Part shown: in pieces, positions 7,919-22,985 of the stretch
How the letters are laid out: each line of letters starts with the position of its first letter
Position numbering within the stretch: position 1 is the first letter of the stretch
Origin: Bacillus sp. ISL-37
GTDB taxonomy: Bacteria > Bacillota > Bacilli > Bacillales > Cytobacillaceae
Assembly: GCF_018613315.1 (NCBI RefSeq)
Contig: NZ_JAGGQL010000016.1
Span: 62,001-126,000, forward strand
Direction: 5' to 3'
Length of the DNA stretch: 64,000 bases
Program-made: the position numbers and the translations under genes
Notes under the pieces: generated by a model
The model's database searches: none
What the model was told of the DNA's origin: nothing
Seen by the model: the letters and a program-made list of their open reading frames with translations, nothing else

Positions 7919-9436
7919 TTAGCTGACAGGCTTTTGGTCGGAAGCAGACAACGCATCTTCTTTCAGTTGCTTTTTATCAATTTTGCCTACATGTGTCTTC
8001 GGCATTTGGCCAATGGTATAGATCACTTTCGGTACTTTATAACCGCCCAGCTTCTGCCTGCAATGCTTTTTGGCTTCCTGCTCCCCCAAATCGGCTCCTT
8101 CTTCAAGAACAATGAAGGCAGTCACTACCTCTCCCCACTTTTCATCCGGTATGCCGACCACAGCAGCCTCGCGAATAGAAGGATGGGAACAGAGCCAGTG
8201 CTCAATTTCGAGGGGATAGACATTTTCGCCACCCGTAATGATCAGCTCTTTTTTCCGGCCGACAATATAGTAATAGCCATCTCTATCTCTTTTCGCCAGG
8301 TCGCCTGTATAGAGCCAGCCATCCTTCAATGTGTCTTCGGTCGCGTTCTTATTTTTCCAGTAAAAAGAAAATGCATGATTCCCCTGGATGGCGAGTTCAC
8401 CGACCTCATCCGCTCCAGTCTCGTTGCCGTCTTCATGCAGGATCCTGATATTATGGAACAACATCGGTTTGCCGACTGAGCCTCTTTTTACATCCGCCTC
8501 TGAAGGGTCTATGTAAAAATTATTCGGGCCAGCTTCTGTCAGGCCATAGCCCTCCTTGAAGGCAATACCCTTCTGTTTGTAAGCTTCATAAATTTCGAGC
8601 GGGCATGGGGCTCCCCCTGATAAAAATAGCTTTATATCCTTGAATACTGCCTTATGAAAGGAATCCGATTTTACAAGCATATGGTGCATCGTCGGGACAA
8701 ACAGGACGATCGTGCACTTATGCTCAATTAAATTCTTAATCGCACTTTCCGGTGTAAAATCATTGGCCAGGACGACGGTGCCCCCTGCCATCAGGATCGG
8801 AACGGAAAGAGCATTCAGCCCTCCCGTGTGGAATAATGGTAAATATGTTACCGTTCGGTCTTCATTCGTCAGATTCCAGCTGGTAATCGTCGAAATGCTA
8901 TTCCAGATGATTGCCCGATGTGACAGAACCGCTCCTTTTGGTTTGCCGGTGGTCCCGCCTGTATAAATCATTGCCAGAGGGTCTTCCTCATCCAAATCCA
9001 TTTCACGCTGGCCGGCGAATTGCTCAATCAGCCTCGAGAATCGGGTACCATTTATTTGAATGCAGCGATTTTCCTCAGTCCAGATCATCGTCACTTCTTT
9101 TGTAAAACTTGAATGGAACGCAAGGATCGAGGGTTCACAATCTTTTATAATAAAGGCTAATTCATCGATAGATAGCCTCCAGTTCAACGGCACGAAAATG
9201 GCACCGATCTTTCCACAGGCAAACAGCAAATCAAAATAACAGATTCCATTTGGCGCGAGCAAGGCTATTCTGTCTCCCTTTTTTACCCCTTCTGTTTCCA
9301 GCCACGCTGCGATCGCTTTAGCCCGATCATTGACTTCCCTGTACGACCAGTCCTGACCTGTCCCTGCATCGATAATCGCAGCGGCCTTCGGGGTCAAACT
9401 TGCTCTTTTTTCAAGCCAATCGAGCTCCCACCTCAC
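7919..9436 (-). CDS. AMP-dependent acyl-CoA synthetase
   Basis: This adenylate-forming ligase converts a carboxylic acid, ATP and CoA into acyl-CoA. It has the ATP loop [12 protein letters not shown], the GYGLTEAGP motif, YTGDLAKRDRDGY, and the C-terminal lysine motif KTHVGKIDKKQL. I prefer GTG 9436 (505 aa, starting VRWELDWLEKRA), which follows AGAGGGAGAG. The upstream ATG at 9460 has no ribosome-binding site and would lie almost at the predicted transcription start. The promoter carries the same paired heptamer as livK, which links this gene to the liv/ketosynthase operon. It may activate the compound imported by that transporter (inference). The substrate class, medium or long chain or aromatic, is not determined by sequence. 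Confidence 0.88.
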   Translation of the reverse strand: MRWELDWLEKRASLTPKAAAIIDAGTGQDWSYREVNDRAKAIAAWLETEGVKKGDRIALLAPNGICYFDLLFACGKIGAIFVPLNWRLSIDELAFIIKDCEPSILAFHSSFTKEVTMIWTEENRCIQINGTRFSRLIEQFAGQREMDLDEEDPLAMIYTGGTTGKPKGAVLSHRAIIWNSISTITSWNLTNEDRTVTYLPLFHTGGLNALSVPILMAGGTVVLANDFTPESAIKNLIEHKCTIVLFVPTMHHMLVKSDSFHKAVFKDIKLFLSGGAPCPLEIYEAYKQKGIAFKEGYGLTEAGPNNFYIDPSEADVKRGSVGKPMLFHNIRILHEDGNETGADEVGELAIQGNHAFSFYWKNKNATEDTLKDGWLYTGDLAKRDRDGYYYIVGRKKELIITGGENVYPLEIEHWLCSHPSIREAAVVGIPDEKWGEVVTAFIVLEEGADLGEQEAKKHCRQKLGGYKVPKVIYTIGQMPKTHVGKIDKKQLKEDALSASDQKPVS

Positions 9437-9469
9437 CGCAATCTCTCCCTCTCTCGTCATGATGGGTTT

Positions 9470-9502
9470 ATTTTAGGAAATGGGAGTTACAGGATAGTTA
9501 CA
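9470..9502 (-). promoter_or_regulatory. SARP-type promoter: paired TGTAACT heptamers and -10 of the acyl-CoA ligase
   Basis: On the minus strand two TGTAACT heptamers lie at 9502-9496 and 9491-9485 (4 bp apart, 11-bp period). Nine bp later comes TAAAAT at 9475-9470. The livK promoter has the identical heptamers, spacing and -10 distance. There is no consensus -35 at 17 bp, as expected for an activator-dependent promoter. Confidence 0.75.
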
Positions 9503-9506
9503 TAAG

Positions 9507-9536
9507 CAAAAAACACCACAGCATCAGCTATGGTGT
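9507..9536 (-). terminator. Rho-independent terminator of the small gene at 9544
   Basis: On the minus strand ACACCATAGC pairs with GCTGTGGTGT around a TGAT loop, followed by TTTTTTG. It separates the 9544-9879 gene from the acyl-CoA ligase promoter. Confidence 0.85.
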
Positions 9537-9543
9537 CAAGATT

Positions 9544-9879
9544 TTATAAGCCACTTAACTCTTCTTCCGTAAATATCCCCATGCTTTTCACATGATTCCT
9601 GGCTTCAGCATCACCCAGTTTGTAGACCATCGCGTAAATTTCCTTCATCGCAAAGTCATATTCAGCATGTTCACGGTCTGGGTCCTTGAAAGGATGCAGA
9701 TGGGAATTTCCGTATGTTGCCCAGTCTGCTTTATAGTTTATCTCCAAGTATTCGCGCAGATCCTTGATTTCTTCTCCTGTCGCGAACAACGTGAATAAAT
9801 GGCCCTCCGGCTCAGCCGGCGTGTCCAGGACCTCGCCGCTTTCTATATTAAAGTAGTACTTCTGCTTTGTTTCTTCCAT
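9544..9879 (-). CDS. conserved hypothetical protein (111 aa)
   Basis: I do not recognise this family. It is a soluble, acidic protein rich in Asp, Glu and aromatics, without signal peptide or membrane segment, starting MEETKQKYYFNIESGEV. I chose ATG 9879, which follows GAGGTG; an in-frame start at 9909 lacks a ribosome-binding site. It lies between the acyl-CoA ligase and the SDR operon on the same strand and has its own terminator. It therefore looks like a separate unit, or a weakly read-through tail of the SDR operon. The codon pattern looks like real coding sequence. No function is proposed. Confidence 0.7.
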   Translation of the reverse strand: MEETKQKYYFNIESGEVLDTPAEPEGHLFTLFATGEEIKDLREYLEINYKADWATYGNSHLHPFKDPDREHAEYDFAMKEIYAMVYKLGDAEARNHVKSMGIFTEEELSGL

Positions 9880-10130
9880 GTACAGCACCTCATTCTTTTT
9901 TAATACCATTTACCACTTTTAGAGGGAAGTTAACCTTAAAGTGATGATTGGTGGATGCAAAAAGTGGAGATAGGCTACGGAATAGGGAGTGTGCCATTTA
10001 TAGAGATTAAGTAATTTTAATACCAATTGGCATGACCTGTTGAAGCAATTTTATTAACAGTGGGGAGGTTTTTTCGCTGCTCGGAGGGTTTGAAACGGAT
10101 TTACCTACGCTTAGCTCGAATATTTCTACG

Positions 10131-10236
10131 GTTGAGAGATTTATCTCCAGTTGAGAGAGTTTTCTCCGGTTGAAAGAGATTTTTCTCCAGTTTAAGAGAG
10201 ATTTTTCTCCAGTTGGTATCATTTTATCTACGGTTG
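10131..10236. repeat. tandem palindromic repeat array, 19-22 bp units, about 5 copies
   Basis: Units begin GTTGAGAGA or GTTGAAAGAGA and end TCTCCA or TCTCCG, so each can form a short GAGA/TCTC hairpin. Copies diverge at the right end. The array is flanked by two related GCTCRAATAT segments. The remaining 9880-10265 spacer holds no other gene that I can support. Confidence 0.8.
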
Positions 10237-10267
10237 GCTCAAATATATTCCTCCCCTTCTTACCCAA

Positions 10268-10295
10268 AATAAAAAAGCGCATCGAGTGCGCTTTT
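10268..10295 (-). terminator. terminator of the liv/ketosynthase/SDR operon
   Basis: On the minus strand AAAAGCGCA, a CTCGA loop and TGCGCTTTTTT follow just after the SDR stop codon. This marks the end of the long operon. Confidence 0.88.
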
Positions 10296-10299
10296 ACAG

Positions 10300-11040
10300 T
10301 TACATCATGATCCCGCCATCAACATGAAGAGTCGTGCCGTTTACATATTTGGATTCATCCGAGGCGAGGAACAAATAGGCATTGGCTATGTCCTCTGGCA
10401 AACCGAGCCTGCCAAGCGGGACAAGCATTTTCATTTGTTCAATCACTTTGTCTGGTACTGCGGCGGTCATACCCGTTTCGATGAAACCTGGCGCTACAGC
10501 GTTGACATTGATGCCTTTGCGGCCAAGTTCCTTCGCCCATGTTTTCGTCATCCCGACGACTCCGGCTTTTGTTGCTGCGTAGTTTGTCTGTCCCACGTTG
10601 CCATATATGCCGGAAACGGATGATGTATTGATGATTCTCCCTGAACCTTGCTGAACCATCGCTGGCACAACCGCCTGGGCGCAATTGAATACGCCGGTCA
10701 GGTTGACATCAACGACTTTTTGAAAGTCCTCTGCCGAAAGCTTATGAAGCATCCCATCCCTGGTGATGCCTGCATTATTTATTAAAATATCAATTTTGCC
10801 AAAGTGTCCTAAAACGTTTTGGGCCAACGAGTCTACGCTGGTCCTATCGGCAACATTCACCTGAAAAAAAGCGACGTCATATCCCTCAGCTGACAGTTCA
10901 GCTGCACGCTCCGATCCTGTCTCCTCATCAAAGTCAGCCATCGCAACCCTGGCACCTTCACGGGCAAAAGTCTTTGCAGCAGCAAGCCCAATTCCGTTGG
11001 CTGCACCTGTAATAATCGCTACCTTGTCTTTCAATCTCAT
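10300..11040 (-). CDS. SDR-family 3-oxoacyl reductase (FabG/PhaB-like)
   Basis: This is a 246-residue short-chain dehydrogenase. The NAD(P)-binding motif TGAANGIG lies at residues 11-18, then NNAG near 88, a catalytic Ser in NTSSVSG and YAATK supplying Tyr and Lys. The C-terminus ending VDGGIMM is typical of FabG-like 3-oxoacyl-ACP or acetoacetyl-CoA reductases. It is the last gene of the operon, 12 bp after the alpha/beta hydrolase. The housekeeping fabG normally sits in the fab cluster, so this copy more likely reduces a beta-keto intermediate made by the neighbouring ketosynthase-like enzyme (inference). Confidence 0.9.
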   Translation of the reverse strand: MRLKDKVAIITGAANGIGLAAAKTFAREGARVAMADFDEETGSERAAELSAEGYDVAFFQVNVADRTSVDSLAQNVLGHFGKIDILINNAGITRDGMLHKLSAEDFQKVVDVNLTGVFNCAQAVVPAMVQQGSGRIINTSSVSGIYGNVGQTNYAATKAGVVGMTKTWAKELGRKGINVNAVAPGFIETGMTAAVPDKVIEQMKMLVPLGRLGLPEDIANAYLFLASDESKYVNGTTLHVDGGIMM

Positions 11041-11052
11041 AAATACACCTTC

Positions 11053-11955
11053 CTACTCTGCTAAAAATCCTTCGATATGCTGCAATAGCTGGTCCAGGTC
11101 ATCCACTAATGGCGAATGGCCGCAATTTTTCATTCCCACAAACTTTGCCCGCCCTGCAAAATCCTCGATAATTTCTTCTGCCATTCTTTTAGTGACAACA
11201 AGATCCCGGTCACCGCGGAGTACAAGCACAGGAATCTGGATATCCTTTACCTGGTCTGTTCCATCCTTCAACCCATTATTTAAAGAACTGATGTTAAAAG
11301 TATTAAGAGAATGGTAGACTTCAGCCAAGTTACGCTGTGTCAGCATATCATCAACATACTCATCATAATGCCGTTCATCCGGCTGACGATCGGTATAAAT
11401 CAACATATTCCACATTGCCTTTAAAAATCCTCTATTATGCTGGTCATAGGCCGTCTGGACGGCAACCGTTTTACCAGTATCCGCTTTTACATCCTCATAA
11501 GTAACCAGCCGGTTATTTACATCTGGCAGACCCTCTGCACTAGTCCCGAAGAACGGATATCCTCTCGTTGATGCTGATGCGAGCAGCACAAGTTTTTCAC
11601 AATAACCTGGATAATCAGCGGCGAATTGCATCCCTACTGCTCCTCCCGTCGACCAGCCAACAAGTGCAAACTCCTTCAACCCAATTTCATCTACAAACAA
11701 CTTTACATCATCAGAAAAACCCTTGATGGACATGATTGGCTTATGATAGCTGGACTCACCAAATCCCCTCAGGTCAACCGCAAAAATTTTATATTCAGGG
11801 TCAATCCTGTCAATCAACAGGTCCCAGTGTTTGGATGATGTCATGTTGCCGTGGATCAATAGAACATTTTTGGTTCCGCCATCCCGTTCCCTATACGCGA
11901 TGGTTTCCCCATTCTGCAAATCAACTTTCTTCAATTCCACTGCTGTTTTTTCCAT
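11053..11955 (-). CDS. alpha/beta-fold hydrolase
   Basis: A 300-residue hydrolase starting MEKTAVELKKVDLQNG. It has an oxyanion-loop HGNMTSS, the nucleophile elbow GWSTGG (serine nucleophile), an acid in LRGDRDLV and a catalytic His in GHSPLVDD near the C-terminus. The ATG overlaps the TAA of the ketosynthase gene by one base (TAATG), indicating translational coupling, and GGGAAAGGGTG lies upstream. Family members are esterases, thioesterases or C-C hydrolases. Its tight coupling to a FabH-like enzyme suggests action on the same acyl thioester or ester (inference). There is no signal peptide, so it is cytoplasmic. Confidence 0.87.
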   Translation of the reverse strand: MEKTAVELKKVDLQNGETIAYRERDGGTKNVLLIHGNMTSSKHWDLLIDRIDPEYKIFAVDLRGFGESSYHKPIMSIKGFSDDVKLFVDEIGLKEFALVGWSTGGAVGMQFAADYPGYCEKLVLLASASTRGYPFFGTSAEGLPDVNNRLVTYEDVKADTGKTVAVQTAYDQHNRGFLKAMWNMLIYTDRQPDERHYDEYVDDMLTQRNLAEVYHSLNTFNISSLNNGLKDGTDQVKDIQIPVLVLRGDRDLVVTKRMAEEIIEDFAGRAKFVGMKNCGHSPLVDDLDQLLQHIEGFLAE

Positions 11956-12971
11956 TACAGCACACCCTTTCCCCAACGAATGGTTGTTGCGCCCCATGCA
12001 TAGCCTATCCCTGCACTGACAAGAACAGCTACATCCCCGTCCTTCAATTTCCCTGCCTTTTCTGCAAGTTCCAGCGACAGGATCTGGTCAATCTGTCCAA
12101 TATGACCATAGTCTTCGAGGTAGATAGAGTTTTCTTCCGTAAGCCCTAGCTCCCTCAATACAAAATCATGTGCCGACCGCTTCATGTGTAACATCCCGAC
12201 GTAAGAGATATCTTTTTCGGAAAACCCGCTTTTTTCAACGGACCGAGAGATGACCTTCAGGAAATTAGCCATTGACTTTTGCTCGAGCCGTTCTTTCATT
12301 CCCTGGGGATCGAGAACATCAAGCTGGTACAGACCTCGCTCCAGGTTCTCTGCTGAAATCGGATTTTTTGTCCCGCCGGCAACCACGACGACATCCTCGG
12401 AAAAAGACCCATCCGTAATTATTTCTGTTTCCAGCAGCACGTTCTCCTGATGGCCCTTTTGCAATAAAATTGCACCGCCACCGGCCCCGAGATTGTACAT
12501 GAACCGTGTTCTCGGATTCTGGTAATCTATGAAATCACCATTGCGATAACCTCCAGCGAGGAGGACGGTATTGATCGCCGAATCAGAGAGCATCATCCCT
12601 TTGGCAAGCTTCAGGGCCATCACTGTCGTTCCGCATCTTAATGCCGTGTCAAAGGCCCAGGCATTCCTTGCACCGATTTCCTCCTGCAGCTTGATTCCGG
12701 CTGTCCATAATGGATACTCCTTGTATTCCTCACCAATATAGATGACGAGGTCGATGTCCAGTGGATCAATGTTTGCTTTTTCCAATGCAATTCTCGCAGC
12801 TCTGATTCCCATCTCACATGTATGGTCACCTGGACCAGGCACCGGCTTTTTCTTGATTCCCATCTTTTCTTCCACAACTTCTTCAGGAATTCCTGCCAAA
12901 TGAGCAATTTCCGCTCCTGTGACGTAGTTTTCAGGAAGGTAGATTCCCGTACTGACAATACCAATCTGCAT
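11955..12971 (-). CDS. FabH-like 3-oxoacyl-ACP synthase III family protein with Cys-His-His site
   Basis: A 338-residue thiolase-fold enzyme of the KAS III type, starting MQIGIVSTGIYLPENY. The nucleophile aligns at Cys113 in FDTALRCGTT. The His is His262 in MLHMKRSAH. The position that is Asn in FabH (YGN) reads His290 in DYGHIGQ, so the triad is Cys-His-His. It is therefore unlikely to be housekeeping FabH. The start at 12971 follows AAAGGAGGG. An open frame continues upstream to 13235, but only through the inserted repeat element, so I reject that extension. The gene lies between transport genes and a hydrolase/SDR pair, implying a role in making or breaking a beta-keto acyl-CoA. Confidence 0.85.
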   Translation of the reverse strand: MQIGIVSTGIYLPENYVTGAEIAHLAGIPEEVVEEKMGIKKKPVPGPGDHTCEMGIRAARIALEKANIDPLDIDLVIYIGEEYKEYPLWTAGIKLQEEIGARNAWAFDTALRCGTTVMALKLAKGMMLSDSAINTVLLAGGYRNGDFIDYQNPRTRFMYNLGAGGGAILLQKGHQENVLLETEIITDGSFSEDVVVVAGGTKNPISAENLERGLYQLDVLDPQGMKERLEQKSMANFLKVISRSVEKSGFSEKDISYVGMLHMKRSAHDFVLRELGLTEENSIYLEDYGHIGQIDQILSLELAEKAGKLKDGDVAVLVSAGIGYAWGATTIRWGKGVL

Positions 12972-12989
12972 CTTCTTCCCTCCTTTTTG

Positions 12990-13179
12990 AAAGGCTGTTT
13001 TCGTAAAGATTGTTGTTAAAATCCTAAAGCCGATTTTAACGTGATAAAAAGTCATTTTGTAGGTCGGTATTAAGTGTGCAAGCTCTTTTCTCAAAAAAAG
13101 TTTTAATTTTATGAAAAAACATAGATCATTCAATCCTATTTTGTAGTCATTAGCAACAAAGTCTGAGAAAAGAGCCTTT
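12990..13179. mobile_element. MITE-like element A (190 bp, inverted ends)
   Basis: Ends are inverted copies: AAAGGCTGTTTTCGTAAAG on one side and, reverse-complemented, AAAGGCTCTTTTCTCAGAC on the other, both running into TTGTTG. It has no open frame of its own and is closely related to element B at 32541. It lies inside the liv operon, 19 bp upstream of the ketosynthase start and just ahead of that gene's ribosome-binding site. No clear target duplication is visible. Confidence 0.72.
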
Positions 13180-13218
13180 AAAAAACGCATGCACTGGAGT
13201 TGGACAGTAAAACTAACT

Positions 13219-13398
13219 CTATGAATCTCCAACAATTTCTTTAATAAATTCCATTGCCGACTCTACGGAATCAAACACAGCTTCCTTTTCTTCCTGCACA
13301 TATGTTACCTTGACTCTCCAGTATTTTCTGCCGCTGTCCATTTCGATGTCCGCGAGCTGGAAACGAAGTACGAATGAAGTAACTTGCTTTGTTTCCAT
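13219..13398 (-). CDS. small conserved hypothetical protein (59 aa)
   Basis: A soluble 59-residue protein (METKQVTSFVLRFQLADIEM...) with beta-rich N-terminal and helical C-terminal composition. Its ATG overlaps the livM stop by one base (GTGATGG), with GGGAG upstream, so it is translationally coupled to livM. It belongs to the liv/ketosynthase operon and is followed by MITE-like element A. I do not recognise the family. Operon membership suggests a subunit or accessory role in the pathway, but nothing in the sequence proves it. Confidence 0.65.
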   Translation of the reverse strand: METKQVTSFVLRFQLADIEMDSGRKYWRVKVTYVQEEKEAVFDSVESAMEFIKEIVGDS

Positions 13399-14408
13399 CA
13401 CGAATCTCCCTGGCTGACAGTCTCTGATTCAACCGGAACTGAAGCTTTCTTTTTCTTTCTGAATTTCAGTTTTTGCAAGGTTCCGACGATGCCCATTGGG
13501 AAGAACATGACTGCAAGGATATAAATGATGCCGAAAAAGATGATCCATCTCTCGAAAATCCAGTGAACCTTTGCCAGTTCTGTCAGCCAGTGATGGGAAA
13601 ACTCGATGATTCCCGCGCCGATGATTGCTCCGACAAGCGTCCCGACTCCGCCAATGATGGTCATCAGCAAGGCATCAAGTGTGATATCCATTGTAAAAAC
13701 ACTCGTGTTAACGAACCTTAAGGAAACAGCATATAAAATCCCCGCGATACCTGCGATGACTCCTGATACGACACTGGCAATGATTTTATACTGCAAAACG
13801 CTGTACCCGAGCGATTCTGTCCGCTGTTCATTTTCCCTGATGGCCTGGAGTACTCTTCCGAGTGGGGAATTGGTGAATCTTTTTAATAAAATGAAGACAA
13901 TGACCATCGAACCAAGGCAGATCAGGTAAAAGTCTGTCCGGTCCTTCAGGAAGTCCGGTACCCTGAACGTGAAGCCATCATTTCCATAAGTAACAGTGCG
14001 CCATTTTTCAGCGAGTACTAAAAACAATCCGGCGAATGCCATCGTCAGCATCGCATAAAAATGACTTTTTAGCCGCAATGTCAGCAGTCCGACGAAATAA
14101 CTTACCACAGCAGTAAGCAAGATCGTGACAAGAACAGCCAGCAGAAAGTAGCTTGTTTCTGGTTCGAATTTTTTCATAAAGACACCAACCGTGTAAGCCC
14201 CGATGCCAAAGAACATCGCATGGCCGAACGAGACGATGCCCGTGTAACCGAGCAGGATGTCATAGCTCATGGCCAATACAGCAAAAATGAACACCTGGGA
14301 GAGAAGGATGAGCAAGCTTCTTGAATCGTAGACAAAAGGAAGCACAGCCAAGAACCCGGCGACAAGCAAATATAAGATGTTCATGCGATTTGAAAACATT
14401 CTTGTCAT
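13398..14408 (-). CDS. livM: branched-chain amino acid-type ABC transporter permease LivM
   Basis: A 336-residue permease with about 10 membrane segments and the LivM/LivH loop ESLGYSVLQYKIIASVVSG. The C-terminal tail is basic and then acidic. It begins MTRMFSNRMN after GGGGTGAGGAGAGG, 7 bp after livH. It pairs with LivH as the heterodimeric channel of a HAAT-family importer. Such systems also import amides, urea and aromatic or aliphatic acids, so the substrate need not be leucine; the acyl-CoA enzymes in the operon point to a carboxylic acid (inference). Confidence 0.92.
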   Translation of the reverse strand: MTRMFSNRMNILYLLVAGFLAVLPFVYDSRSLLILLSQVFIFAVLAMSYDILLGYTGIVSFGHAMFFGIGAYTVGVFMKKFEPETSYFLLAVLVTILLTAVVSYFVGLLTLRLKSHFYAMLTMAFAGLFLVLAEKWRTVTYGNDGFTFRVPDFLKDRTDFYLICLGSMVIVFILLKRFTNSPLGRVLQAIRENEQRTESLGYSVLQYKIIASVVSGVIAGIAGILYAVSLRFVNTSVFTMDITLDALLMTIIGGVGTLVGAIIGAGIIEFSHHWLTELAKVHWIFERWIIFFGIIYILAVMFFPMGIVGTLQKLKFRKKKKASVPVESETVSQGDS

Positions 14409-14415
14409 CCTCTCC

Positions 14416-15276
14416 TCACCCCTTTGCCCCGAATAAGCCCTGTGGCCTGAAAATCAATACGACTGCCATCAGCAGCATATTAGCTGCAAGCGCCAGGTCT
14501 GGTACATAATAGGCCATGAATGAACCTGACAATCCAACCAGAATTGCGGCCATCACCGAGCCTGTAAAGCTTCCCATTCCACCAATGACCACTACGATGA
14601 ACGCGAGGATCGCGAACTCCATGCCCATATCTGCATAAATCACGCCAGAATATGGCCCTAGCAGCATCCCTCCCAGAGCAGCCATGCCAGCTCCAATCAT
14701 GAAAACGAACATGAATACTCTCTGGATATTGACTCCTAGTGATTGGACCATTTCCTTGTTCATGACCCCTGCGCGAACGACTAAACCAATCTTTGTCTTT
14801 TTCAGCAGGTATTGTACAGTGAGGAATACAGCAAATCCTACGGCAATGATGAAAACCCGGTATTTGATGATGATGATCCCGCCAAACTCCCAGCTGCCCG
14901 AAAGGTAATCAGGGGTTACCGCTGAAATCTGGTTAGGTCCCCAGACCACTTTTAACATCTCCGATAAAACAAGCATCAAGCCAAGCGTGATCAATATTTG
15001 CTGCACATGGTTGCCGTAAACAGGTTTAATGATCCATCGCTCAGTTACAATTCCGAGGATCATGCCAGTAAGGATGGCACCGATGATCCCAATAAAAAAG
15101 CTTCCTGTCGAGGTATAAATCCAAATGCCACTGTACGCGCCCCAGGCAAACAATCCACCATGGGCAAAGTTTAGTACATCCATCAAGCCAAAAATCAAAG
15201 TAAGGCCGGCTGCCAGAAGGAAGATCAGCATTCCCGTGGCAAGACCGTTAAGGCTCAAGTTAATCAAAACATCCAC
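14416..15276 (-). CDS. livH: branched-chain amino acid-type ABC transporter permease LivH
   Basis: A 286-residue permease with about eight hydrophobic segments, starting MDVLINLSLNGLATGM from a GTG at 15276 behind GGGGGAAGC. The family features are the N-terminal GLTLIFGLMDVLNFAHGG segment and the late loop VIGGMGSFTGSV. It partners LivM in the importer and is driven by LivG and LivF, encoded just upstream in transcription order. The gap to livF is 17 bp, so the genes are co-transcribed. Confidence 0.92.
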   Translation of the reverse strand: MDVLINLSLNGLATGMLIFLLAAGLTLIFGLMDVLNFAHGGLFAWGAYSGIWIYTSTGSFFIGIIGAILTGMILGIVTERWIIKPVYGNHVQQILITLGLMLVLSEMLKVVWGPNQISAVTPDYLSGSWEFGGIIIIKYRVFIIAVGFAVFLTVQYLLKKTKIGLVVRAGVMNKEMVQSLGVNIQRVFMFVFMIGAGMAALGGMLLGPYSGVIYADMGMEFAILAFIVVVIGGMGSFTGSVMAAILVGLSGSFMAYYVPDLALAANMLLMAVVLIFRPQGLFGAKG

Positions 15277-15293
15277 TTTTGCTTCCCCCTATC

Positions 15294-16001
15294 CTACGCA
15301 ATGCCGAGATATTTACGTCTCATTTCTTCATCCTCACGAAGGAGATTCATTGATCCGTTCGAAACCGTCCTGCCATCGTCAATGATGTAAAAGCTATCGC
15401 CAATCGTGCTGGCCATCATGAAGTTTTGTTCTACAAGGATGATTGTCGTTTTATCCTTCATTTGCTGGATGGATTCCATCACCTTCTCGACAACGATCGG
15501 TGCAAGGCCTTTGCTCGGTTCATCGATCAAGAGCAGTTCATTGTCATTGACATATGCTCTTGCGATAGAAAGCATCTGCTTCTGGCCGCCGCTCAAAAGC
15601 CCGCCGGGTTTTTTCCAGAACTTTTTCAAATCAGGAAAAAGATCAAGAATCCAATCCAGTCGCTGTTGGGTCTCATCGTTCTCTTTTTTGACTGCCACCT
15701 TGATATTTTCTTCGACAGTCAGGCCAGCAAAAATCCCCTGATCTTCTGGAACATATCCGATTCCTTTATTTGCAATCGAATAAGTTGGCAAACTCTTGAT
15801 TTCTTCTTCTTTAAATAAAACAGAACCTTTAGCAGCGGGGTTCAGGCCCATGATCGTTCTGAGTGTAGTCGTTTTACCGGCACCATTTCGGCCCAGCAGC
15901 ACAGTAACCTCTCCTCTCGGCACTTCAAATGAGATACCTTGAAGAATATGATACTGGCCAATGAATGTCTCAACCTGCTCAAGCTTCAGCAGCGTGCTCA
16001 C
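15294..16001 (-). CDS. livF: ABC transporter ATP-binding protein LivF
   Basis: A 235-residue ATPase with Walker A GRNGAGKTT, signature LLSGGQKQML, Walker B LLLIDEPSKGLAP and switch His in ILVEQNF context. The start is a GTG at 16001 preceded by AGGAGG, inside the last 23 bp of livG. This gives a coding overlap and probable coupling. It energises the LivHM channel together with LivG. The short LivF-type C-terminus (no regulatory domain) fits the family. Confidence 0.93.
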   Translation of the reverse strand: MSTLLKLEQVETFIGQYHILQGISFEVPRGEVTVLLGRNGAGKTTTLRTIMGLNPAAKGSVLFKEEEIKSLPTYSIANKGIGYVPEDQGIFAGLTVEENIKVAVKKENDETQQRLDWILDLFPDLKKFWKKPGGLLSGGQKQMLSIARAYVNDNELLLIDEPSKGLAPIVVEKVMESIQQMKDKTTIILVEQNFMMASTIGDSFYIIDDGRTVSNGSMNLLREDEEMRRKYLGIA

Positions 16002-16752
16002 TATGCAAACCTCCTAAATAGGCAGACTGGACCGTTTCATTTTTCATGATTTCCTCTGGCGTACCATCAGCAAGCAGGGCGCCATTGAACAGGACCATGA
16101 TGGAATCAGAAAGATCCATGATCATGTCCATTTTGTGTTCAATCAAAATGATCGTCCGGTCACCGCGTTGTTTGATTTTCCTGATCACCTCGAGGATTGC
16201 CGGAACCTCTTCCAGTGACATACCTGCCGTCGGTTCATCGAGCAGCAGCACCTCAGTGTTCAGAGCAAGCAGCATGGCGATCTCCAGCTTCCTTTTCTCA
16301 CCATGGGCAAGGTTCCTTGCAAGTGCATCCTTCTTGTCATCGAGCAACACCAGCTTCAGCCACTCTTCTGCTTGCTCCTCAAATTTTTTAAAGGAACGAA
16401 AATGCCTGAGCATCTGGTAGCGGACTCCTTCATGTGACTGTACCGCAAGACGGACATTTTCCATCACTGTCAGATTGGGGAATACATTGGTAATCTGGAA
16501 GGACCGTCCAATTCCTGCCCTTGTTCTTTTAGTCGGGGAGAGCTTTGTGATGTCACTGCCTTTATACATGACCTGTCCTTTCGTCGGCGCAAGCTGCCCG
16601 CTCAACAGGTTGAAGAAAGTCGTTTTCCCGGCACCGTTCGGACCGATGATTGATTTGAAATGATTATGCGGGACTGAGATGCTGACAGAGTCTACAGCGG
16701 TATGGCCGCCAAATGTAATGCTAAGCTCTTTCGTCTCGATAATTGCCGTCAT
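15979..16752 (-). CDS. livG: ABC transporter ATP-binding protein LivG
   Basis: A 257-residue ATPase with Walker A GPNGAGKTT, signature NLAHGEKRKLE (the LivG variant) and Walker B LLLDEPTAGMS. ATG 16752 (MTAIIETKELSITFGG) follows AAAGGTGGTG; the in-frame upstream ATG at 16806 lacks a ribosome-binding site and enters the intergenic hairpin. The long spacer to livK contains a modular repeat and a hairpin, so the ATPases and permeases may be expressed below livK, as is usual for such operons. Confidence 0.93.
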   Translation of the reverse strand: MTAIIETKELSITFGGHTAVDSVSISVPHNHFKSIIGPNGAGKTTFFNLLSGQLAPTKGQVMYKGSDITKLSPTKRTRAGIGRSFQITNVFPNLTVMENVRLAVQSHEGVRYQMLRHFRSFKKFEEQAEEWLKLVLLDDKKDALARNLAHGEKRKLEIAMLLALNTEVLLLDEPTAGMSLEEVPAILEVIRKIKQRGDRTIILIEHKMDMIMDLSDSIMVLFNGALLADGTPEEIMKNETVQSAYLGGLHSEHAAEA

Positions 16753-16803
16753 GTACTTCACCACCTTTAATTCAATAACAACTAAGTAACGATTCACTAA
16801 AAG

Positions 16804-16841
16804 CATAATGAACTCCGGCTGAGTTACCGAAGTTCATTATG
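16804..16841 (-). terminator. intercistronic hairpin between livK and livG
   Basis: CATAATGAACT and AGTTCATTATG, each extended by CGG/CCG, form a long stem with a short loop. On the minus strand it is followed by CTTTTAG. It lies 52 bp upstream of the livG start and could act as a partial terminator or a stabiliser of livK mRNA. Confidence 0.55.
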
Positions 16842-16850
16842 TTATTTGGA

Positions 16851-17140
16851 GCGGAAGCGTCTTGGTCAGCCCCGACAAGCGCTGCCCGCCTATAACGCCA
16901 CGTCCTGTGGCTGGCGGGTCTAGCACATCGTGTGCCTCGGAGGGCCTGACGGTGAAGTCGTTCTTTGACTTCATTGGCAGGACCGAAATCGAAATGTATA
17001 GCCGACTGCCCAGAAACGTAGAAACTGGAGACTCCGACTAAGAAGCGCTCTTTGCTTCTGCCGGCGGAGTTGAAGTTTCGGAGTTTCTAGGAGGCGAAAC
17101 TAGACAAGCGACTCGAGGGGCTAGGCGCTGGAGCTGGACA
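16851..17140. repeat. modular intergenic repeat, copy 1
   Basis: It shares with the copies at 28224, 53630 and 63577 the blocks CCCCGACAAGCGCTG, a GCCCGCC...GGCGGGT hairpin, GTCTAGCACATCGTGTGC and GTGAAGTCG...GACTTCA with its loop. It ends in CTCGAGGGGCTAGGCGCTGG. This copy has an extra internal segment of about 100 bp. It lies just downstream of the livK stop codon (minus strand). Confidence 0.88.
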
Positions 17141-17177
17141 GTTCTCGAAGTGATTTTATACTTTTTTATTTTTCTTG

Positions 17178-18422
17178 TTAATTCCTGATTGGCGGAGCTG
17201 TTTCTTCTGGAGAGAGCTCACGGATCAGGACTGGAACTGGATAGTCAACTCCATCCTTTTTCTCCAGCTTGATTGCGTATAGTGCCTGGAGTGCCTGATG
17301 GTCTTCTTCCCGGAAGGTCATTTTTCCTTTTGGAGAATCAAAGCTCATTCCTTCCATTGTCTCGATCAATTTCTTGGAATCCGTGTCACCCTCAGTTTTC
17401 TTCAAAGCTTCGACAATTGCCATCGCAGCTGTCATGCCTCCTGGCGTAAACAAATCTGGAAGCTCACCGTTAAAGCGTTTTTTATGTTCATCAACTAGCC
17501 ATTTATTGACGTCATTTTGCGGAAGGTCATGATAATAAACAGTGAAGCCTTCCATGCCGACAAGTGGCTCCATCGTTGCAAGTGCTGCGATATCAGGAGC
17601 ACCAGTAGAGATTTTGATTCCTTTTTCCTGGACCTTCATGTCTGAAATCTGGTTCCAAGGTGAATTCGCGCCAGCCCATACGACAAATAAGTAATCCGGC
17701 TTCTGGTCGATGATCTTCTGGATGTTGGAAGTGAAATCAGTCGCAGCAGGATCTGCATATTCTTCATGAATGACTTCTGCACCAAGTTTTTCAGCTGCTT
17801 CTTTGAACGCTGCCACGCCATCACGTCCAAATGAATAATCAGGAGCAAGAGTCGCGATTTTTACGCCTTTCTTCGCGATTGCAGCGGCACCCGCAACAGC
17901 ATCCTGTGAAGAGTTACGCGCTGTGCGGAAAATAAATTCATTGAATTCAGAGCCTGTGATACTGTCTGCTACAGCCGGCTCGACGATCATGATTTTTTCA
18001 TATTCTTCAGCAAGCGGCAGAACTGCCAGAGTGTCACCTGAACTAGAAGAACCGACAAGGAAGTCTACTTCATCCTCTTCAAGCAGCTTCGTCGCTTTCT
18101 GGACAGCTACTTCCGGTTTCGTTTCTGTATCTTCAACAATGAATTCAATTTTACGTCCCGCCACTTCATTTGTTCCGTTAGTAGCGTATTCAAGTCCCAG
18201 CTCGAACCCGCGAAGTGTCTGCTTCCCATAAGCCTCAAGTCCGCCTGTTTGCGAAGCCAGGACACCAATCTTGATTGGTTCAGTGTTTTTCGGTTCATCT
18301 TTTCCGTCTTTCCCTTCCGTACCGCCTGACTTCTCTGTTCCCGATCCACTGCAGGCACTTGTAAACAAAAGGACCAAAATGAGCATAAATGATAAAACAA
18401 AATTCCGTTGACCAGCTTTCAT
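17178..18422 (-). CDS. livK: LivK-type substrate-binding lipoprotein
   Basis: A 414-residue periplasmic-binding-protein type I receptor for the LivFGHM importer. The N-terminus has a lipoprotein signal, with the lipobox LFTSAC giving a lipidated Cys at about residue 24. An acidic/Gly linker follows, then PIKIGVLASQTGGLEAYGK, the usual start of HAAT receptors. The ATG at 18422 follows GGGGGAAAGGAA. It is the first gene of the operon and carries the paired-heptamer promoter. The Gly/Ala-rich binding pocket does not identify the ligand. Confidence 0.93.
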   Translation of the reverse strand: MKAGQRNFVLSFMLILVLLFTSACSGSGTEKSGGTEGKDGKDEPKNTEPIKIGVLASQTGGLEAYGKQTLRGFELGLEYATNGTNEVAGRKIEFIVEDTETKPEVAVQKATKLLEEDEVDFLVGSSSSGDTLAVLPLAEEYEKIMIVEPAVADSITGSEFNEFIFRTARNSSQDAVAGAAAIAKKGVKIATLAPDYSFGRDGVAAFKEAAEKLGAEVIHEEYADPAATDFTSNIQKIIDQKPDYLFVVWAGANSPWNQISDMKVQEKGIKISTGAPDIAALATMEPLVGMEGFTVYYHDLPQNDVNKWLVDEHKKRFNGELPDLFTPGGMTAAMAIVEALKKTEGDTDSKKLIETMEGMSFDSPKGKMTFREEDHQALQALYAIKLEKKDGVDYPVPVLIRELSPEETAPPIRN

Positions 18423-18473
18423 TTCCTTTCCCCCTTTAAAATGGTGATTCCAAAGCCCACAAGCTTTGACATC

Positions 18474-18506
18474 ATCTTAAAAAACGCCAGTTACAAATGA
18501 GTTACA
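18474..18506 (-). promoter_or_regulatory. SARP-type promoter: paired TGTAACT heptamers and -10 of the liv operon
   Basis: Minus-strand heptamers TGTAACT lie at 18506-18500 and 18495-18489, 4 bp apart. TAAGAT at 18479-18474 follows 9 bp later. Predicted transcription start is near 18467, giving a leader of about 45 nt. The layout equals that of the acyl-CoA ligase promoter at 9470-9502. Confidence 0.75.
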
Positions 18507-19748: not shown

Positions 19749-22700
19749 TTAGTTTCCTTCAATTATCATCTCATACATATGCCTTGTAGGTTCCAGCGGA
19801 GTGACGCCCAGTTCCTCTTCTAACACTTCACTGCATTTTTTATACCATCGGATGGCCTGCGGGCGATTGTTCTTGCGATAATAGCAAAACATCAGCAATC
19901 GATAGGCTTCCTCCCATGTTCTGTCCCTGTGGAGGATTTTTTGACACCAATGAATGGCAGAATCATAGTTTTCACGCCTTACATTCAGCTGCGCCAGCTT
20001 CTCCGCACTTCGCAAAAAGTAAACTAGCATCCGTTCTCGCTCATTGAGGCACCAGTCCTCATACCGTCGTTCAGGAAGATAATCCCCATTATATAAATTC
20101 AAGGCACGCTCTAGTTCTTCCATTGATTTTTCCGTATTCTTCTCTTCAAGGCCGGCTTCTGCCCATTCCTCAAAAATCCGCGAATCCAGCTCAATGGCTG
20201 CCTGTGGGTTAATTCCGTAGCCTGTTCCCTCCCTGATAATGAAAAACGGAGCGGCTCTCGCTTTGCGGGCAGGCTCCAGTACATTATTCAAAGCATTTAG
20301 AGCAACTTTAAAATCTCTGTCTGCACTCTTTTCCTCATGGACTGGCCAGAGCATCTGGAAAATATCCTCCTTCATCAGGAACTGATTCCTCTTTGTCAAG
20401 AAAAGCTGGAACAGCTCTTTTGCTTTTCCCCTCTGCCAATCCCTGTCCTCCACTTCCCTGTCCCCTAGCCAAAGCCTGAATTGCCCAAGCGTTTGGACTC
20501 TTAACGTATAGCCAGGATGGGCATTCAGACGCGGAATTTTCAAATCCTCCAGCAGCTTCTCAGCATAGCCGGGCATAATGGATTGCTTGACTGCTTGAAT
20601 GAGCATCGGTGCGAAAACCTGCAAATCCCTTGGACCAAATGTCGTCCGCTTTTTCAGGAAGAATTCATATCCGCCTGTCTTCATCCTTTTTAAAAAGCTT
20701 GAGAATGCTGTTTTGAACTCCTGACCGTCATTTAATGAGTAATAATAGTAAGACTTCCAAAACGCAAGCAGCATCCTCCCATATTCATCTCCACACTGAC
20801 TAATCAGTCCCTCTGCTTTATGAAGGTTCTCGCTCGCCTCCTTGTGCCTGTCGTTATAAATTGACGCAATCGCCAGGCAAAGCGTTATAAGTGCTGAAAG
20901 CCAAACATCCTTCACCTGTTCTGTTTCAAGCAGCGCCTTTCTCCCAGCCTCTGCAGCCCTCTCATATTCACGCCTTGATCCGTAAAGGATGCACAGGCCC
21001 ATCAGCGGTTCTGCCTTCCCTCGTTCGATGCTCAGACGTCCCATGATATCGAGTGCCGTTTCATAGCATTTTTCAGCCAGAGCCAGATCGTACTGTTCAA
21101 TGAGTTGAACGGCATGCCCCATCCTGATCCATCCGCAAGCTTCCACAAATGGAGCCTGGATATCAATGCCATGCTGGATCCCTGCTTGGGACAACGCCTT
21201 CGCCTGCATGCCATTTCCTGTAAAAGCTTCGATCAATGCAAGCAACAAATCCGTTTCCCGATGTGATTGGGGCAAATGCAGCTTATCATTTAGATGGTCG
21301 ATCGCTTTGACGTCCGTTAAAATCCTTCTGGATTCAACAAATCGTCCGGTCCTTAAGGTTAGCCGGGCTTCCAGATTTCCATCCTCTATGTGGACACCCA
21401 TCGCCCTTGCTCGTTCAATCCATTTTTCCGCCTTCAATGCCTGCCCCGAATTGATCAGGTTTTCAGCAAGAAGGCGATACAGCCTTCCCGTTTCCTCAGC
21501 AGCACCATTAAGCATCGCTGCTTCCCGAAGCTCTATCGCTTGAGCTAAGATACGTTCAGCTTTAAGCGGCTGAATCGTATCAAGATAAATTTTCGCTTTT
21601 CCTTCAAGAGCCTTGCTTTTCCATTCCGCACTTCCTATCCTGTCAGCTGTTTGAATCGCCTGCTCATAGCATTCTTCCGCTTGCTTGTACAATGAGCGGT
21701 AACGGTAAACCTCACCTTCAAGAAACAAAAGTGAACAATAGCGACTTTTATCTTCCAGCGGGATTCTTGCTAGCCGTTCCTGCAGATTCTCGAGCTTGCC
21801 CATTTCTAGTAGTTCCATCCCCTGTTCATCCATAATCGCTGCAGCAGCACGGTATTGGCCTATTTTCTCATAGCAGTATAAAGCCTCTTCCCAATGCCCT
21901 TTTTTTTCAAAATAATGTGCACTATTCATCATCAAAACTCTGTATTGTTCAGGCTGGCTTGTGATCAGCCTGTTCTCAAGGAATTCGCGGAAAAGAGCGT
22001 GATACCTGAACTGGCTGCCGCCAATCTGTTGAATGAACAGGTTTTTCGCAGTCAGCTGCTCCAGCATCTGGATGGAGCCGTTCATGCCGAGGATGTGGTC
22101 GCATACATCCGTACTTAGTTCTTCAAAGATGCTTGTCTGTTCAAGGAATTGCTGAATCATTGGAGGCTGTTTCGAAAACACTTCATAAACCAGATATTGA
22201 AACAGATCCTCAAGCGACTTTGCCGGCTCCACCAGGAGCTCATCAAGACTCTGAAGGTGAGGCAGCTGCTGGGCAATCATTCCAATTGCTATGACCCAGC
22301 CTTCCGTAATGTTATACAACTGGTCAATTTGATCGTCAGTAATAGCAACCTGATAAAAATCAGAAAGTAGCAGCTCGATTTCTTCTTTTCCAAAAATCAA
22401 ATCTGTCTTCGAAATCTCATTCAACTCATTCCTAGCCTTCAACTTGGCAAGGACTTTCCAACCGGGCTTCGTCCTGGTTGAGATGACAAGATGGAGATGC
22501 CCCGGCATATGCTCCAGCAGTTTTTCCAACCATACATTGATATGATAGGAATGCTCTATTGCGTGGAAGTCATCAAGGATGACAATGATTTTCTCCGGTA
22601 TCTGGAGGGTTTCATTGATGAAAAGCGAAGAGAGCATGCTAAGTTCCTCTTCTCTTATATAACGGTCCATCTTTTTCATATAAGTGATTAACTCATGGCC

Positions 22701-22985
22701 AAAATCCGGGAACAAGGTTTGAATCGAGGCTGTCAAATAGGATAGAAACGGAAGAATATCGTCATCGGAAGAAGTGATTGTATACCAGCAGCACGACTGG
22801 TTCTGATCCTTGACATGCAATGCCAGAGCCGTGCTCTTTCCATATCCGGCGCCCGCCTGGATGATGGTCAGCGTCTTTTCAGTAATCGCTTTCATTTTTT
22901 TTGATAATTTGGCCCGTCTGATCCATTGATCCTGTAAGCCAGGAACAATTAATTTTGTTTTGATCAATGGCAATGTTCCCTGCAT
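19749..22985 (-). CDS. MalT-like NTPase transcriptional activator with C-terminal SARP-type DNA-binding and BTAD domains
   Basis: A 1078-residue regulator. The N-terminal third is a STAND-type ATPase (Walker A GAGYGKST at residues 45-52; IIVILDDFH as Walker B). The middle is a long TPR-like helical array for effector sensing. From about residue 835, VQTLGQFRLWLGDREVEDRDW begins an OmpR-like winged helix (KAKELFQLFLTKRNQFLMKEDIF), followed by a bacterial transcriptional activator domain with YLPERRYEDWCLNERERM. MalT itself ends in a LuxR helix-turn-helix; here a SARP-like end replaces it. ATG 22985 follows GGCGGAG. SARP proteins bind heptamer direct repeats of 11-bp period ahead of -10, and two such promoters lie at 18474-18506 and 9470-9502. 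It is therefore the likely activator of the liv/acyl-CoA module (inference). Confidence 0.85.
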   Translation of the reverse strand: MQGTLPLIKTKLIVPGLQDQWIRRAKLSKKMKAITEKTLTIIQAGAGYGKSTALALHVKDQNQSCCWYTITSSDDDILPFLSYLTASIQTLFPDFGHELITYMKKMDRYIREEELSMLSSLFINETLQIPEKIIVILDDFHAIEHSYHINVWLEKLLEHMPGHLHLVISTRTKPGWKVLAKLKARNELNEISKTDLIFGKEEIELLLSDFYQVAITDDQIDQLYNITEGWVIAIGMIAQQLPHLQSLDELLVEPAKSLEDLFQYLVYEVFSKQPPMIQQFLEQTSIFEELSTDVCDHILGMNGSIQMLEQLTAKNLFIQQIGGSQFRYHALFREFLENRLITSQPEQYRVLMMNSAHYFEKKGHWEEALYCYEKIGQYRAAAAIMDEQGMELLEMGKLENLQERLARIPLEDKSRYCSLLFLEGEVYRYRSLYKQAEECYEQAIQTADRIGSAEWKSKALEGKAKIYLDTIQPLKAERILAQAIELREAAMLNGAAEETGRLYRLLAENLINSGQALKAEKWIERARAMGVHIEDGNLEARLTLRTGRFVESRRILTDVKAIDHLNDKLHLPQSHRETDLLLALIEAFTGNGMQAKALSQAGIQHGIDIQAPFVEACGWIRMGHAVQLIEQYDLALAEKCYETALDIMGRLSIERGKAEPLMGLCILYGSRREYERAAEAGRKALLETEQVKDVWLSALITLCLAIASIYNDRHKEASENLHKAEGLISQCGDEYGRMLLAFWKSYYYYSLNDGQEFKTAFSSFLKRMKTGGYEFFLKKRTTFGPRDLQVFAPMLIQAVKQSIMPGYAEKLLEDLKIPRLNAHPGYTLRVQTLGQFRLWLGDREVEDRDWQRGKAKELFQLFLTKRNQFLMKEDIFQMLWPVHEEKSADRDFKVALNALNNVLEPARKARAAPFFIIREGTGYGINPQAAIELDSRIFEEWAEAGLEEKNTEKSMEELERALNLYNGDYLPERRYEDWCLNERERMLVYFLRSAEKLAQLNVRRENYDSAIHWCQKILHRDRTWEEAYRLLMFCYYRKNNRPQAIRWYKKCSEVLEEELGVTPLEPTRHMYEMIIEGN

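Follow-up and report, generated by a model that had tools for sequence, protein, structure and literature searches.

Which protein controls the promoters of livK and of an acyl-CoA ligase gene in Bacillus sp. ISL-37, and which pathway does it serve? Both promoters lie on a stretch of 64,000 nucleotides (contig NZ_JAGGQL010000016.1, positions 62,001 to 126,000; hereafter the window, with positions counted from its first letter) and both carry the heptamer TGTAACT twice. An earlier inspection of the letters (the sequence-only reading) had assigned the two sites to the neighbouring regulator gene. SARP-type regulators are known mainly from antibiotic-making actinomycetes, and poly(3-hydroxybutyrate) (PHB) is a bacterial storage plastic. 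From the sequence of the sites, their conservation, their co-occurrence with the regulator, its predicted SARP fold and a third class of targets in relatives, we conclude with a probability of roughly 0.8 that both sites are operators of this regulator and that the regulon serves the uptake and use of PHB breakdown products. The elements concerned are the following:

18489..18506, minus strand: livK operator, TGTAACT-CATT-TGTAACT
18474..18479, minus strand: -10 box TAAGAT of the livK promoter, 9 nt past the second heptamer
9485..9502, minus strand: acyl-CoA ligase operator, TGTAACT-ATCC-TGTAACT
9470..9475, minus strand: -10 box TAAAAT of the acyl-CoA ligase promoter
19749..22985, minus strand: regulator with a MalT-like part (STAND ATPase and TPR region) and, C-terminal to it, a SARP-type domain (domain matches, translation motifs)
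19752..20513, minus strand: SARP-type DNA-binding and BTA domain, the last 254 residues of the regulator (predicted structure, structure comparison)

Both sites read as first described, TGTAACT-N4-TGTAACT-N9-TAARAT on the minus strand: the livK promoter (18506-18474) is TGTAACT-CATT-TGTAACT-ggcgttttt-TAAGAT and the ligase promoter (9502-9470) TGTAACT-ATCC-TGTAACT-cccatttcc-TAAAAT, with transcription starts predicted near 18467 and 9463, respectively. The sequence-only reading had seen the motif nowhere else in the intergenic DNA of the window, and indeed only these two sites match the heptamer pair exactly, the other three matches carrying three mismatches each. Across the genome, 4.74 Mb in 62 contigs searched on both strands, the heptamer pair occurs twice exactly, never with one mismatch and 21 times with two (23 at up to two mismatches). 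The window count at up to three mismatches is ordinary (5 found against 3.5 expected); the significance of the pair is carried by its exactness and conservation. No -35-like hexamer was read 16–18 bp from the -10 box at either site and, therefore, the promoters look activator-dependent. Relative to the fixed -10 box, the heptamer repeats sit where a -35 box would be. A site that overlaps the -35 or sigma region 4 position could also be occupied by a repressor, and the regulator might block polymerase there until substrate is present, but both the missing hexamer and the match of SARP fold and site placement to activators make such repression improbable.

Conservation was followed in 160 loci (two sets of 80, some genomes being represented twice) and the window, 161 rows in all. 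Wherever regulator and livK lie in the same locus the livK site is present (152/152 rows; 120 exact, 28 with one mismatch, 4 with two), and the ligase site was found with zero to two mismatches in 125 of the 142 rows whose locus includes both regulator and ligase. Clustering at <70% flank identity left 85 livK and 57 ligase sites, in which the heptamer columns were 84–100% identical and the 4-bp and 9-bp spacers variable; the T, A and last T of the -10 box stood at 99–100%, and an A was found at the predicted transcription start in 93% of the livK and 88% of the ligase clusters. The sequence TANNNT follows the second heptamer at a spacer of 9 in 117/118 livK and 92/92 ligase sites (209/210 combined). 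A motif-blind count of 7-mer repeats ranked TGTAACT at gap 4 first in both promoter sets, with 51 of 70 livK and 51 of 79 ligase regions holding it, the best of 20 shuffles reaching 1. The operator is a direct repeat with an 11-bp period, as for SARP sites.

The pair is also distributed non-randomly across genomes. It was found exactly in 82 of 193 genomes of the family (reversed control 6/193) and, together with the -10 box, in 79 of 397 genomes of the order (reversed control 1/397). That the repeats are there by chance, or were inherited without selection, has next to no probability: the unremarkable window count at three mismatches would allow it, but spacers diverge where heptamers do not, the same motif stands before unlinked genes, and the counts, including the reversed control, already contradict it. 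Of the family genomes, 80 hold the regulator together with the exact pair, 8 have a regulator but no exact pair, 2 have the pair without a regulator and 103 have neither; of 94 regulator-positive genomes 88 were kept, G163 among them, and G023, G047, G093, G115, G147 and G182 were dropped because they hold MalT-like paralogues only. For the order, with the -10 box required and on the assumption that site search and regulator search ran over one set of 397 genomes (the handles listed by each agree), the corresponding numbers are 77, 22, 2 and 296; 16 of the 22 regulator-only genomes hold a TGYAACY variant of the site (relaxed pattern, applied to 25 genomes). Orthologous operons without the regulator (L251, which is the DNA of L113; L252; L253, which is the DNA of L150) have no site, the best matches having at least 4 mismatches at livK and 3–6 at the ligase. 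Likewise, no site was found before livK in 16 loci of a paralogous livK group (L254-L268, L270). Among the genomes of all these loci, G193 and G194 gave no regulator at E up to 1e-15. Of the two livK genes of Psychrobacillus sp. OK032, the regulator-adjacent one (L157) carries the site and the other (L102) does not; in L145, where the regulator lies beyond the ligase, the site is retained. Conservation and non-random occurrence together support the proposal of the sequence-only reading that the neighbouring regulator recognises the pair.

The translation of the regulator holds the P-loop GAGYGKST and VILDD, a BTAD match lies at residues 933-1074, and no receiver domain was found in the domain scan. 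The C-terminal 254 residues were predicted with a pLDDT of 94.6, and the predicted structure has the SARP layout, in which an all-helical BTA domain comes after an OmpR-type winged helix; the presumed recognition helix contains the invariant block DFKV..N. The SARP-like winged helix and BTAD first read from the letters thus hold at the level of the predicted fold. In sequence searches the whole C-terminal domain matched AfsR at E 6.5e-7, ranked under several designed TPR proteins, and the DNA-binding domain alone matched PhoB best (E 0.002) and WalR weakly, with AfsR absent at E up to 10.

Among known systems, enterobacterial MalT resembles the regulator in its N-terminal STAND ATPase and TPR region (model NF003420 covers residues 7-492 only, at 227.4 bits, below the cut-off of 537) and, as a functional parallel, in its regulon for polymer use with importer and depolymerases; unlike the SARP-type output found here, that of MalT is of LuxR type. 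EmbR of Mycobacterium tuberculosis has no STAND part and other targets, and PhaR/AniA-type proteins are PHB-granule-associated storage regulators of unrelated architecture. EmbR (PDB 2fez, 2ff4) carries an FHA domain; what PhaR/AniA-type proteins have in common with the regulator is transcriptional control of PHB metabolism (PMC12542648). AfsR, the large SARP of Streptomyces coelicolor (PDB 8hvr, 8k60), also combines OmpR-type DNA-binding and BTA domains, an ATP-binding NOD/STAND part and TPR in one protein. According to the AfsR study (PMC10936776), which also names MalT as a STAND regulator, adjacent SARP protomers of AfsR sit on two 11-bp repeats and carry sigma region 4, the inhibition exerted by the NOD and TPR parts is relieved when ATP binds, and the 3' repeat of SARP activators lies 8 bp from the -10 box. 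Here, too, direct 11-bp repeats lie over the -35 region, with a predicted centre at about -28.5 (-29.5 in AfsR). In AfsR, however, the SARP domain is N-terminal and NOD and TPR follow, whereas the order here is STAND, TPR, SARP, and because of this reversal we do not file the regulator as an AfsR-type large SARP. Further differences are the identity of only ~20%, the repeat TGTAACT, the occurrence in Bacillales and the catabolic targets as against antibiotic control.

What the regulon is for was indicated by relatives. Sixteen loci with exact sites, chosen because the site lies away from the regulator, were followed; ten of these sites are upstream of esterases with PHB-depolymerase sequence, and one (L341) is the ligase promoter again. 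Nine of the ten esterases were scanned and match the extracellular polyhydroxyalkanoate (PHA) depolymerase family NF050058, where eight of ten proteins scanned exceed the cut-off of 150, L334 (a 134-residue fragment) reaches 106.9 and the L342 protein has no match; the tenth esterase, L338 in G508, was recovered by the NF050058 scan of the order genomes, 37 of 373 of which hold a match over the cut-off. The label "extracellular" follows the family name and hydrophobic N-termini judged by eye. Depolymerase genes were also listed regardless of sites, by protein query in the family and by NF050058 in the 373 order genomes, giving 81, and upstream DNA was examined for 78, the other three lying at the liv operon, between fabG and the ligase gene in G288 and G343 and directly after the ligase gene in G050. 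In genomes with the regulator 18 of 25 depolymerase genes have an upstream site with up to two mismatches, all with a -10 box at spacer 9, but only 1 of 53 (G528) in genomes without it. The degenerate pattern TGYAACY, taken twice, flags 17 of the 25, and G291 is the eighteenth with one mismatch outside the pattern; G191 was left out since it came from the site search; including it gives 19/26, and its site has no -10 box. Two depolymerases of G204 lie on contigs other than that of the regulator and in G369 depolymerase and regulator are ~1 megabase apart, so the link is in trans. The two-promoter regulon proposed by the sequence-only reading stands for this genome at zero to one mismatch but not for the group, in which extracellular-type PHB depolymerases form a third promoter class that points to the function of the regulon.

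Another distant site, perfect and with a -10 box, precedes a gene for a 418-residue hydrolase with a hydrophobic N-terminus (L342:2716-3972, minus strand, G458). This protein gave no Pfam match at E 1e-5 and chance-level NCBIfam matches only, and against the PDB it matched a lipase weakly (E 2e-4); it is a candidate for a new type of PHA depolymerase. The exact sites before genes that we named from their translations as LacI-type (L335), Nudix (L336), glycosyltransferase-like (L345) and glycosidase-like (L346) were judged to be chance, three of the four being without a -10 box.

The genes behind the two sites of the window are as follows, the names LivG, LivF, LivH and LivM being presumed from operon position and general knowledge:

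17178..18422, minus strand: LivK-type substrate-binding protein (Peripla_BP_6 match)
15979..16806, minus strand: LivG-type ABC ATPase (open reading frame, place in the conserved operon)
15294..16001, minus strand: LivF-type ABC ATPase (same evidence)
14416..15276, minus strand: LivH-type permease (same evidence)
13398..14408, minus strand: LivM-type permease (same evidence)
11955..12971, minus strand: 3-oxoacyl-ACP synthase III-like protein (NF005308, 534 bits, cut-off 315); start placed at ATG 12971, where the match begins
11053..11955, minus strand: intracellular short-chain-length PHA depolymerase (NF050089, 457.9 bits, cut-off 300); longest reading frame from 11997, ATG 11955 likelier
10300..11040, minus strand: FabG-type 3-oxoacyl/acetoacetyl-CoA reductase (NF004198, 320 bits, cut-off 296)
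9544..9909, minus strand: 121-residue protein, present in 28/147 operons compared; no family match in Pfam-type and NCBIfam-type scans of the window proteins
7919..9436, minus strand: AMP-forming acyl-CoA ligase (family matches; proposed GTG start)

The intracellular PHA depolymerase is present in 140 of the 147 operons and the FabG-type gene in 116. Together with the sites before extracellular-type depolymerases, they point to the use of PHB and 3-hydroxybutyrate. A glyoxalase-like gene between regulator and livK was rejected as part of the system; it occurs in only 21 of the 147 operons, all by regulators at least 82% identical. For the ligase, the GTG at 9436, preceded by GAGAGAGGGAGAG, a good ribosome-binding site, is the likelier start, and the longest-frame start at 9460 is probably unused since it lies only 3 nt from the predicted transcription start. 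Where the livK transcript is predicted to begin, CAAAGCTT..GGCTTTG (18467-18452 in the window) is conserved among relatives as well, whereas the ligase promoter does not share it; an RNA hairpin at the livK start was unsupported (window fold z-score 0.35), and the element may be a second operator. In the distant loci L141, L142, L147, L148, L154, L156 and L159 a cre-like sequence such as GTAAACGCTTACAA lies just past the livK -10 box, which would suggest catabolite repression by CcpA. Other loci showed decay: L269 (G044:C7) is a copy with regulator, livK and phaZ fragmented and fabG and one site left, and G163:C10:169662-170225 is a lone C-terminal fragment of the regulator (query residues 890-1077), apparently a relic, in a genome with no site by the strict or the relaxed pattern. 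The records of L086 and L156, titled Chryseobacterium and Arthrobacter, carry Bacillaceae-type loci, and their titles look wrong.

Several observations weigh against operators of this regulator in a PHB regulon. The spacer from heptamer end to -10 box is 9 bp and not the 8 bp of SARPs, a difference that depends on where the repeat end is drawn; the SARP-like promoter layout claimed at the outset holds as a layout, but layout alone would not prove SARP control because 11-bp repeats are common to OmpR-family sites, including the WalR consensus. The ligase site is missing in 17 of 142 rows (those ligases are 47–60% identical to that of the window), and 6 of 99 order genomes with the regulator have no site even under the relaxed pattern. 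The site persists in G044, where the regulator is fragmented, in G011, whose regulator gene is interrupted by 6 stops, and in G528, where no regulator was found; in these genomes the regulator may have been lost recently. Seven of the 25 depolymerase genes in regulator genomes are without a site; in three of them (G102, two in G157) a stop codon lies inside the match. No extracellular-family depolymerase was found in the genome of the window by the protein-query and NF050058 scans, and most family genomes with the regulator are without one, too. Last, both sites fit exactly the Bacillus subtilis WalR consensus TGTWAH-N5-TGTWAH as given in PMC9210968.

If the sites were owned by a response regulator of the OmpR family, with WalR (YycF) as the foremost candidate, this would account for the 11-bp period and the half-site TGTAAC, and the matches of the DNA-binding domain to PhoB and WalR would agree with it. 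But across 66 livK and 64 ligase matches both halves have A at every W and C at every H, where a WalR site should vary, and WalR would not explain the loss of the site together with the regulator, because the WalRK system is described as present in all Firmicutes. Moreover, the targets are not cell-wall genes, and with 49 WalR-type matches against 37 in reversed controls the pattern is near chance in this genome. Because of the invariance at degenerate positions and the co-occurrence with a STAND-SARP regulator, WalR was rejected as owner of the sites and is, in our view, highly improbable; the sites may be used by WalR and the regulator alike.

The missing extracellular depolymerases would also suit a regulon for another acid (branched-chain, short-chain or aromatic) to which the link to PHB depolymerases is secondary. 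The transporter is of branched-chain amino-acid type, the ligase has no specific family above its cut-off among the best 25 matches listed, and the intracellular depolymerase is missing from 7 of the 147 operons. We consider this unlikely, though worth keeping in mind, for sites precede depolymerases in several genera and at unlinked places, depolymerases are found at the liv operon itself, and nearly all operons hold the intracellular enzyme. With the window genome and most family regulator genomes lacking an extracellular depolymerase, PHB use is inferred from relatives; the organism may subsist on what others release when they degrade PHB, or its regulon may serve a related acid. Since the near-invariant site occurs almost only where the regulator is present, the regulator is, judged from these comparisons, very probably the switch for PHB use in many bacilli.

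In the mechanism that we propose, the N-terminal STAND/TPR part would sense a signal together with ATP, in the manner of MalT and AfsR; possible signals are 3-hydroxybutyrate, oligomers of it and a CoA derivative. A pair of SARP domains would then bind side by side on the TGTAACT repeats, one per helix turn, stand in for the -35 box that the promoters lack and bring sigma-A RNA polymerase to the -10 box nine bases downstream; the side-by-side binding and the contact to sigma region 4 are suggested by analogy to AfsR. The genes activated would be those for the Liv-type importer, the intracellular PHA depolymerase, the FabG-type reductase, the 3-oxoacyl-ACP synthase III-like enzyme and the acyl-CoA ligase and, in relatives, also the extracellular-type PHB depolymerases.

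Each part of the system is of a known kind, and what appears new, tentatively and within the literature covered, is the combination of MalT-type sensor, C-terminal SARP output, operator and PHB regulon in Bacillales. Among the matches listed in searches of titles and abstract openings, mostly of open-access papers, there was no Bacillus regulator of SARP or BTAD type whose targets are known and no transcriptional activator of extracellular PHB depolymerases in Bacillales, which is a weak kind of absence. A SARP-type protein outside the actinobacteria gains a concrete operator and a probable function, in carbon metabolism. We give even odds to the broader view of a Bacillales PHB master switch in which a MalT-type sensor joined to a SARP-type output senses a PHB breakdown product, acts by AfsR-like sigma adaptation and brings extracellular depolymerase, importer and intracellular enzymes under joint control. 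The near-invariant operator of this switch would be a sharp search key for new depolymerases and would find polyester-degrading enzymes that family models miss, such as the L342 hydrolase. PHB is a biodegradable plastic of commercial interest, and knowing what triggers its breakdown would be of practical use.
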